A model generated the notes under the pieces. That model had not been told where the DNA came from. It searched no databases and worked only from the letters and a program-made list of their open reading frames with translations. This document shows, in pieces, positions 28,792 to 30,024 of a stretch of DNA of 64,000 nucleotides (position 1 is the first letter of the stretch; each line of letters opens with the position of its first letter). Source of the stretch: Winogradskyella marina (GTDB taxonomy: Bacteria > Bacteroidota > Bacteroidia > Flavobacteriales > Flavobacteriaceae). Both the position numbers and the translations under genes were made by a program. The stretch covers positions 62,001 through 126,000 of the forward strand of contig NZ_JADOET010000007.1 in assembly GCF_015645385.1 (NCBI RefSeq), written 5' to 3'.

Positions 28792-28835
28792 AATTTATCT
28801 TTCTTATTTATCAACTCCTTAAAAATTGGCATAAA

Positions 28836-28862
28836 AAAAGTCTCGATTAAATCGAGACTTTT
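28836..28862 (-). terminator. attenuator terminator upstream of pheA
   Basis: On the minus strand: AAAGTCTCGAT, 3-base loop, ATCGAGACTTT, then a run of T's. It lies 45-70 bases before the pheA GTG, in the leader rather than at an operon end, so it is placed to abort transcription before pheA. The upstream segment 28891-28899 (minus-strand AACGAGACT) repeats the 3' arm and can pair with the 5' arm as an antiterminator. Confidence 0.85.
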
Positions 28863-28902
28863 AAAACTATATTTTAAATAAAACATACTCAGTCTCGTTC
28901 CT

Positions 28903-28953
28903 TTAGCTAAAAAAGAAATAAAACCAGTTATAATATGTTCTAGATATGTTCAT
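28903..28953 (-). CDS. aromatic leader peptide of the pheA operon
   Basis: 17 codons, ATG at 28953 to TAA at 28903-28905, encoding MNISRTYYNWFYFFFS. Eight of 16 residues are aromatic: three Tyr, one Trp and four Phe, with the run W-F-Y-F-F-F directly before the final Ser. GGAG lies 8 bases before the ATG. The stop is 4 bases upstream of the antiterminator arm, so a ribosome reaching the stop would cover that arm while one stalled at the Tyr/Phe codons would not. This is the classical layout of a translation-coupled attenuator controlling Phe/Tyr synthesis. Confidence 0.85.
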   Translation of the reverse strand: MNISRTYYNWFYFFFS

Positions 28954-29078
28954 ATTTATTCTCCACATCCGTGGAAATCTTTTAATTATGTGGCTAATGT
29001 AATTATTATTTTTACAAATCAAAATTGTTGCATTGTTTTTTTGGAAAAAATTTCAAAAATTTAAAGAATTATTAATAA

Positions 29079-29127: not shown

Positions 29128-30024
29128 ATGTCAATCGAAGTTTCAAACATAACCAAACTGTACAAAGATCAGAAAGCACTTAACAATGTTTCTTTTAAAG
29201 TAAATGATGCTGAAATTGTAGGTTTTTTAGGACCAAATGGTGCCGGAAAATCTACTATGATGAAAATTTTAACCACGTATATTGATGCTACAGAAGGTTC
29301 TGCAAGTGTGAATGGATTTGATATTACTTCAGACAAGAAGGCTGTACAAACTAGTGTTGGGTATTTACCGGAGCACAATCCGCTTTATACGGACTTGTAC
29401 GTTAAAGAGTATTTGAATTTTAACGCGAATGTCTATGGCACTTCTAAATCTAGAATAGAAGACGTTATTGAACTTACGGGTTTACAACCTGAATCACACA
29501 AAAAAATAAGTCAGCTTTCTAAAGGTTATAGACAGCGTGTTGGTTTGGCCAATGCTTTACTGCACAATCCGGACGTTTTAATTTTAGATGAACCTACAAC
29601 CGGTTTAGATCCAAATCAATTAGTAGACATTAGAAACTTAATTAGAAGCATAGGAAAAGAAAAAACGGTGTTTTTATCGACGCATATTATGCAAGAAGTT
29701 GAAGCCATGTGCGACCGTGTTATTATCATCAATAAAGGAGAAGTTGTTGCTGATAAATATTTGAAAGATTTGCGTGATGGCCAAGAACAAATTGTGATTG
29801 TTGAATTTGACTTTAGAGTGGAAGATGCCTTTTTGCTAAAATTACCAAAAGTAAAAGCGGTAAAAAACACACATAGTTTTGTTTACGAAATTACATTTTC
29901 TACAAAAGAAGACATGCGTTCTCATGTGTTTGATTTTGCACATGATAATGAGTTGAAAATTTTACAACTGAATCAGAAGAATGCAAGTTTAGAAAGTTTA
30001 TTTAGGGAATTGACCAGTAAATAG
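29128..30024 (+). CDS. gldA: gliding motility ABC transporter ATP-binding protein GldA
   Basis: 298 residues. Cytoplasmic ATPase subunit of the GldA-GldF-GldG exporter, which is required for gliding in Flavobacterium johnsoniae. Walker A GPNGAGKSTMM (about 35-45), Q-loop region GYLPEHNPLY, signature LSKGYRQRVGLANALL (about 133-148), Walker B VLILDEPTTGLDP, and switch His in STHIMQE. The C-terminal about 80 residues form the DUF4162-like tail. The permease genes gldF and gldG are not adjacent here, as in F. johnsoniae where gldA is also apart. Confidence 0.9.
   Translation: MSIEVSNITKLYKDQKALNNVSFKVNDAEIVGFLGPNGAGKSTMMKILTTYIDATEGSASVNGFDITSDKKAVQTSVGYLPEHNPLYTDLYVKEYLNFNANVYGTSKSRIEDVIELTGLQPESHKKISQLSKGYRQRVGLANALLHNPDVLILDEPTTGLDPNQLVDIRNLIRSIGKEKTVFLSTHIMQEVEAMCDRVIIINKGEVVADKYLKDLRDGQEQIVIVEFDFRVEDAFLLKLPKVKAVKNTHSFVYEITFSTKEDMRSHVFDFAHDNELKILQLNQKNASLESLFRELTSK

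Follow-up and report, generated by a model that had tools for sequence, protein, structure and literature searches.

What controls the pheA operon of Winogradskyella marina, and does the short open reading frame just ahead of it sense the amino acids that the operon makes? A preliminary description of the window (the whole stretch of 64,000 nucleotides that was analysed) had proposed an aromatic leader-peptide attenuator at this position. In enterobacterial pheA and pheST leaders, a Phe-rich peptide ends with its stop codon by the antiterminator arm, the 2:3 and 3:4 helices exclude one another, and a terminator lies ahead of the gene; the 1:2, 2:3 and 3:4 helices are the set found in classical attenuators. 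The analysis presented here suggests that pheA-aminotransferase-tyrA-aroG/CM is very probably under the control of a ribosome-mediated transcription attenuator that responds to charged tRNA-Phe and tRNA-Tyr, and perhaps to tRNA-Trp. The computed and sequence basis for this comprises the leader frame, three helices, their conservation and covariation, the association with the operon, and the matching of leader residues to gene products.

Organization of the pheA leader and operon

The leader frame, MNISRTYYNWFYFFFS, lies on the minus strand at 28953-28903 including its TAA stop codon (16 codons; sequence and coordinates were rechecked), and its codons 7-15 include eight aromatic ones (YY-N-WFYFFF). 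Its start codon has an A at both -3 and -6, the positions where adenines correlate with translation in F. johnsoniae according to PMC6847099. On the same strand, three bases past the leader stop rather than the four claimed at first, lies AACGAGACT (28899-28891); the close adjacency of the two stands. Within it, CGAGACT (28897-28891) forms segment 2, the 5′ arm of an antiterminator of 7 bp with AGTCTCG of segment 3. Segment 3 itself, AAAAGTCTCGAT (28862-28851, minus), doubles as the 5′ arm of an intrinsic terminator (28862-28833, minus; 12 bp, a 3-base TTA loop and a T-run; -13.4 kcal/mol), whose 3′ arm is ATCGAGACTTTT (28847-28836, minus), with the T-run continuing to 28833. Segment 3 can thus pair with either segment 2 or segment 4, giving a mutually exclusive antiterminator and terminator that share one strand. 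The frame, CGAGACT, the terminator with its complementary arm, the T-run and pheA were all found with the sequence and at the coordinates previously given.

Folding segments 2-3 of the window gave -13.9 kcal/mol and an additional 8-bp hairpin, UAUGUUUU/AAAAUAUA, in the antiterminator loop (28887-28868, minus). The window fold also contains a 25-bp 1:2 protector helix (28942-28879, minus), in which the leader's aromatic codons pair with the antiterminator arm and the bases flanking it. This helix, absent from the preliminary description, completes the classical 1:2, 2:3 and 3:4 set. As in classical attenuators, codons for the end products lie within a short ORF and the 1:2 helix extends over the regulatory codons.

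Four minus-strand genes follow, and domain matches bore out the identities proposed for them. The first is pheA, encoding prephenate dehydratase (PDT; 28791-27964, GTG start; PF00800, E 1.3e-55), which overlaps by four bases with a class I/II aminotransferase gene (27967-26825; PF00155, E 2.6e-61). Then come tyrA, encoding prephenate dehydrogenase (26774-25923; NF006307 above its cut-off, PF02153 and PF20463), and aroG/CM, a DAHP synthase fused to chorismate mutase (25823-24741; PF00793 and PF01817). Upstream of the leader, the neighbouring gene is gldA on the plus strand (29128-30024). We considered whether the hairpin might be a plain terminator that ends another transcript, or might act in translational attenuation by hiding the pheA start, as hairpins near gene starts are able to do. 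Both are very improbable: gldA is transcribed divergently, which leaves no listed gene running into the hairpin, a T-run is present, and about 40 nt separate the end of the hairpin from the pheA start.

Ahead of the leader, a putative Bacteroidota-type promoter consists of a -33-like element, TTTTG (29024-29020, minus), and a -7-like element, TACATTAG (29001-28994, minus), one base off TAnnTTTG, which is the promoter consensus in PMC9723704. In 100/138 leaders, the 110 nt ahead of the leader start contain the pattern TTG-N16-22-TAnnTT(A/T/G)G, whose second half is a loosened form of that consensus; for mononucleotide shuffles the figure was 47/2760. Between this promoter and the leader, a small hairpin, TCCACGGATGTGGA (28975-28962, minus), covers an in-frame ATG upstream of the leader (MWRIN-MNIS...). 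The longer upstream frame is also open in several members of the genus, and the hairpin may choose between the two leader starts.

To what extent could such an arrangement arise by chance? A strict detector was applied to both strands of the 64 kb, requiring a short ORF in which 7 of 10 residues are aromatic, then 8-100 nt further on a hairpin followed by a T-run, and a complementary arm of at least 6. The pheA leader was the sole match; loosening the detector to 5 of 10 aromatic residues added one match, on the plus strand of the window. When the intergenic region was shuffled 2000 times with its dinucleotides preserved, neither setting gave a match. The stretch 28830-28975 folds at -36 kcal/mol (z -4.65), and none of 200 shuffles folded as well. 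These tests confirmed the observed arrangement as real and not due to chance.

Conservation and covariation of the helices

An alignment of 82 distinct relatives allowed each helix to be assessed (cells being the aligned positions of a pair in one sequence). In the 1:2 helix, 89.9% of cells are paired and 64 cells show two-sided changes; two pairs turn from A-U to U-A or U-G, contributing 22 and 26 of the two-sided cells. None of 500 shuffles matched this helix in paired cells or in covariation score, a test in which kinship alone can let related sequences outscore shuffles without structure. Sliding the helix by 1-3 columns left 44-64% of cells paired, a comparison that favours the true register since the structure was taken from the window sequence itself. 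The terminator (3:4) is paired in 94.1% of cells, with two-sided changes at four pairs, and 0/500 shuffles scored as high in paired cells or covariation.

The antiterminator (2:3) is paired in 94.4% of cells, compared with 21-45% when slid. Its arms barely vary within the family, and 55/500 shuffles reached its covariation score. When slid by -2 it scored 0.114 vs. 0.102 in register, with 23 vs. 2 two-sided cells, yet only 45% of cells were then paired. RNAalifold on the whole alignment recovered the terminator and not the 1:2 helix; on a sub-stretch it gave five pairs of 2:3 and no 1:2 helix.

A wider sample gave more variation in the arms. The multi-genome detector, which required at least 5 aromatic residues in 10 and did not demand both F and Y, was run on 178 upstream regions; 140 passed, and the 38 that did not include at least 14 genuine leaders outside its rules. 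Among the 140 loci there are 45 different arm cores, ranging from CGAGACU/AGUCUCG to AGCGGGA/UCCCGCU and GCCGGGGCU/AGUCCCGGC. With one mean taken per core, the region around the leader stop pairs on average at -9.6 kcal/mol with its own arm and at -6.3 kcal/mol with that of another locus, and 0/20000 permutations were as good. As read from these sequences, the leader-stop region and the terminator arm covary across the 140 loci.

Position of the leader stop and masked folding

If the leader acts through a ribosome, the place of the antiterminator arm relative to the leader stop matters. Across the 140 loci, the distance from the stop to the start of the arm ranges from +9 to -22 nt (the search extended to -22) and is most often -16 (33 loci), -7 (31) or +8 (25), the last being the position in the window. 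At such distances the arm would lie beneath a ribosome halted on the stop codon, or at its margin.

We modelled the ribosome on the window sequence as a 12-nt mask beginning at the first base of the A-site codon. For RNA ending at segment 3, the probability of the 2:3 helix was 0.99 with the ribosome on codons 7-15 and 0.04 with the ribosome at the stop codon. By computation only, then, a ribosome at the stop covers segment 2 and one on the aromatic codons does not. With no ribosome, the same RNA formed 2:3 with a probability of 0.85; therefore, the 1:2 helix protects, allowing termination without translation, only if it forms first. In the complete RNA at equilibrium, the terminator reached 0.97 wherever the ribosome sat. 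Equilibrium folding was rejected as an explanation of the switch, given that the terminator always wins and the order of synthesis must matter; the switch must therefore be kinetic.

The following sequence of events is proposed. When Phe or Tyr is short, a ribosome would stall on the aromatic codons of the leader, break the 1:2 helix and leave CGAGACU free. Once segment 3 had been made, CGAGACU would pair with it as the 2:3 antiterminator, and RNA polymerase would continue into the operon. With Phe and Tyr plentiful, the ribosome would reach the stop codon and cover CGAGACU, and the 3:4 terminator would form. In the case of no translation, the 1:2 helix may likewise favour termination. From the sequence we infer leader translation, polymerase pausing, termination and a response to starvation, and with them the switch itself.

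Distribution within the Flavobacteriaceae

Our next question was how far the leader extends. The genus set comprised 60 genomes including that of W. marina, of which two lacked a PDT match and a third had just a fragment; leader, arm and terminator were present in 57/57 genomes with a usable upstream region. Elsewhere in the family, 176/197 genomes of other genera had a PDT match, from which we sampled the best 28 loci and 40 more spanning the range of PDT similarity (some of the genomes share a genus). Of the best 28, the script accepted 26, whose arms are 4 bp or longer; a contig end truncates one of the two failures, and the other has a 3-bp arm. The frame and hairpin were found at 40/40 of the further loci, so that by script 66/68 of the genomes examined from other genera carry the leader device.

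A covariance model built from the family alignment matched 138/199 family genomes at E≤0.001. The remaining 61/199 had no match, yet at least one of them (G105) has the leader. At E≤1e-5 there were 93 matches in the 199 genomes, 92 with PDT as the next gene downstream and one at a contig end; among the 92, 87 have the PDT match 3-519 nt further downstream, four adjoin PDT and one was assigned by eye. Model matches away from PDT (E≥3.7e-4, eight genomes) were inspected by eye and rejected, as none contained a convincing aromatic leader and they resemble ordinary terminators. A pattern for the leader core gave 50 matches in a one-genome-per-species collection (84,980 genomes), with PDT 107-211 nt further on in 45 and the sequence stretch ending too soon in five. 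These matches fall in genera of the Flavobacteriaceae (Winogradskyella, Psychroserpens, Mangrovimonas, Lacinutrix and others), in unplaced Bacteroidetes and in one MAG named 'Algicola sp.'

Distribution beyond the family

Elsewhere in the order, the leader was present in every genome examined of the families f2 (3/3), f3 (1/1), f9 (3/3) and f15 (3/3), in some by eye only. It was found in 0/2 genomes examined of f16, whose genomes are 0.6 Mb, and in 0/1 of f12, and no aromatic leader was found in genome G070. In f5, an aromatic leader with a terminator at the PDT was found in 0/12 genomes (L159-L170); the PDT of this family is divergent in 11/12 (E 6e-22 to 2e-30), that of G387 being closer (1.3e-69).

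In other orders of the class, 19/19 genomes examined (of 24 with a match) have the leader. The frame lies upstream of PDT in 16 of these, with hairpins identified by eye only in 5/16. For the other three (G514, G544 and G619; L243-L245), absence of the leader was rejected: their operon is rearranged, with the leader ahead of its first gene, which by eye resembles DAHP synthase, and with PDT further down. Beyond the class, the leader was present in 3/9 genomes examined (L158 in G584, L171 in G458 and L172 in G505). The PDTs of these three are much closer to that of the window than the PDTs that the same search gave for other members of their families, and it is possible that operon and attenuator were transferred together.

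The preliminary description had proposed looking in relatives for an F/Y frame with covarying arms. This was found within the genus and the family, and also in four further families of the order and in other orders of the class, and supports the attenuator interpretation. Orthologous pheA regions without the aromatic frame, which that description would have counted against it, do exist (f16, 2/2; G070; f5, 12/12; and 6/9 beyond the class).

Amino acids probably sensed by pheA leaders

Phe is the commonest residue of the 140 detected leaders, at 22%. This might suggest that the leader senses phenylalanine alone, the Tyr and Trp codons being tolerated or kept for the 1:2 helix; the aromatic codons are indeed also paired in 1:2, and conservation by itself cannot prove sensing for each codon. 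However, F and Y occur together in 140/140 leaders although the detector did not demand both, Tyr is also a product of the operon, and Tyr-rich leaders precede a Tyr-making enzyme in three relatives (described below). We consider sensing of Phe alone unlikely.

Whether tryptophan is sensed as well is harder to judge. The aroG/CM product feeds all three aromatic amino acids, and W is present in 105/140 leaders (52/87 outside the genus), in varied sequence contexts, making up 3.6% of residues. On the other hand, 35/87 leaders outside the genus lack W, trpE has a WWW leader of its own in the same genome, and UGG also contributes to the 1:2 helix. Sensing of Trp is a real possibility, to which we give somewhat less than an even chance. 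The preliminary description had named Phe and Tyr, with Trp as a perhaps; the first two are well supported, and Trp is the weaker candidate.

Leaders for other amino acids

Other amino acid operons of the W. marina genome have leaders with hairpins and T-runs, identified by eye: MILIQLHHHFHMIAQAR before hisG (His, HHHFH; L179), MKTNTNHTWWWNFSNLRS before trpE (Trp, WWW; L180) and MKKQVINIISIISIVIISRSQGML before ilvD (Ile/Val, IISIISIVIIS; L182). No leader was found at the second match of the trpE family, or, within the stretch examined, upstream of the best leuA-like match. At thrA (aspartokinase/homoserine dehydrogenase; L187), a short frame ending in ...MFIISTRITLWGNL overlaps a weak hairpin, ATTACCCTTTGGGGTAAT; as a thrA leader it is possible but unconvincing.

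Short phenylalanine hydroxylase genes (PF00351) of relatives follow Tyr-rich leaders in 3/7 cases, with hairpins seen by eye: MKNLNNTYYYYPILTRRIGQ (L268, G140), which has four Tyr; VINTNIYYYYYPLLNFRIG, read from a GTG (L266, G271); and MKTNRIYTIYMYTFYHRWRAR (L271, G187). The other 4/7 have no leader, and another open frame ends 17-57 nt before the match. In G131 (L247), which has no PDT match, a Trp-Trp leader, MTNNNTWWSNSKFYLKR, and a terminator precede aroG/CM. Leaders rich in Phe/Tyr, Tyr, Trp, His or Ile/Val thus each stand before a matching gene, and the residues follow the product.

Comparison with known RNA elements

Could the element belong to a known class? The best Rfam match of the window, RF01859 (Phe_leader), scored 26 vs. 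55 bits (E 0.031), and membership was rejected. Four pheA-leader loci scanned (L001, L003, L142 and L105) had no Rfam match at the gathering score, RF01692 (Bacteroid-trp) included, and RF01692 is not among the matches of the window up to E 10. A structured 5′ element with a terminator would fit a riboswitch, a T-box or a protein-bound leader in outline, with the short frame being incidental. Such an explanation is extremely improbable: the list of 14 Rfam matches (up to E 10) for this stretch of the window includes no T-box or riboswitch family, and the coding frame, the shifting stop position and the matching of residues to products are all unexpected for it.

The attenuator favoured here resembles the enterobacterial pheA and pheST leaders (RF01859) in having a Phe-rich leader peptide with its stop beside the antiterminator arm, 2:3 and 3:4 helices that cannot form together, and a terminator before the gene. 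It differs from them in its mixed Phe and Tyr codons, in a stop position that varies, in a four-gene operon for Phe, Tyr and DAHP, and in its host phylum, the Bacteroidota, described in PMC6847099 as being without Shine-Dalgarno sequences. Bacteroid-trp (RF01692), like it, is an amino acid leader of Bacteroidota (among the motifs tabulated by Weinberg 2010, PMC2864571), but has Trp codons and a trp operon. The trpE leader of W. marina is a member of this family (66.3 vs. 49 bits), and the only one of the His, Trp and Ile/Val leaders of that genome to reach an Rfam threshold.

A structured 5′ element ahead of pheA in F. psychrophilum, conserved in other Flavobacteriaceae and without an Rfam match, is listed by Guerin et al. 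(2021; PMC9723704), who also describe strong clues that leader-peptide attenuation operates ahead of amino acid operons. In the portions of that paper that deal with it, the element is described without a leader peptide, arms, covariation or a distribution beyond the family. Two uORF candidates on shikimate genes, drawn from five genomes and notable for F and Y, are given in PMC6429828. They too are short Phe/Tyr frames ahead of aromatic biosynthesis genes, but the genomes named in the relevant part of that report (HIMB5, Arcobacter and Baumannia) are Proteobacteria. Searching the open literature on leader peptides and attenuation in Bacteroidota or Flavobacterium, we found nothing closer. With one paper among those found (PMC9723704) listing a structured element upstream of pheA in F. 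psychrophilum, the earlier remark that such an attenuator is little described in Bacteroidota was a fair one.

Implications for amino acid regulation in Bacteroidota

Taken a step further, these leaders may be part of a reusable set of ribosome-stalling attenuators in Bacteroidota, a reading that we think somewhat better than even. The aromatic one would be ancient in the class and re-coded with its target: Phe and Tyr for pheA/tyrA, Tyr for phenylalanine hydroxylase, and Trp for aroG/CM in the absence of pheA. The leader would stay at the head of the operon while its stop and arms drift.

The pheA leader offers a widespread and testable example of amino acid attenuation, which the literature that we found merely suggests for Bacteroidota, a phylum without Shine-Dalgarno sequences. 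It also defines an RNA element that has no Rfam family at threshold and that would make Phe/Tyr regulation easier to annotate across many genomes. Residue swaps that occur in nature (Phe/Tyr, Tyr and Trp) provide ready-made controls. Attenuation needs the ribosome and the polymerase to be in step, and coupling in Bacteroidota is therefore directly testable. If these attenuators do form a reusable set, tight coupling of transcription and translation would operate widely in Bacteroidota.
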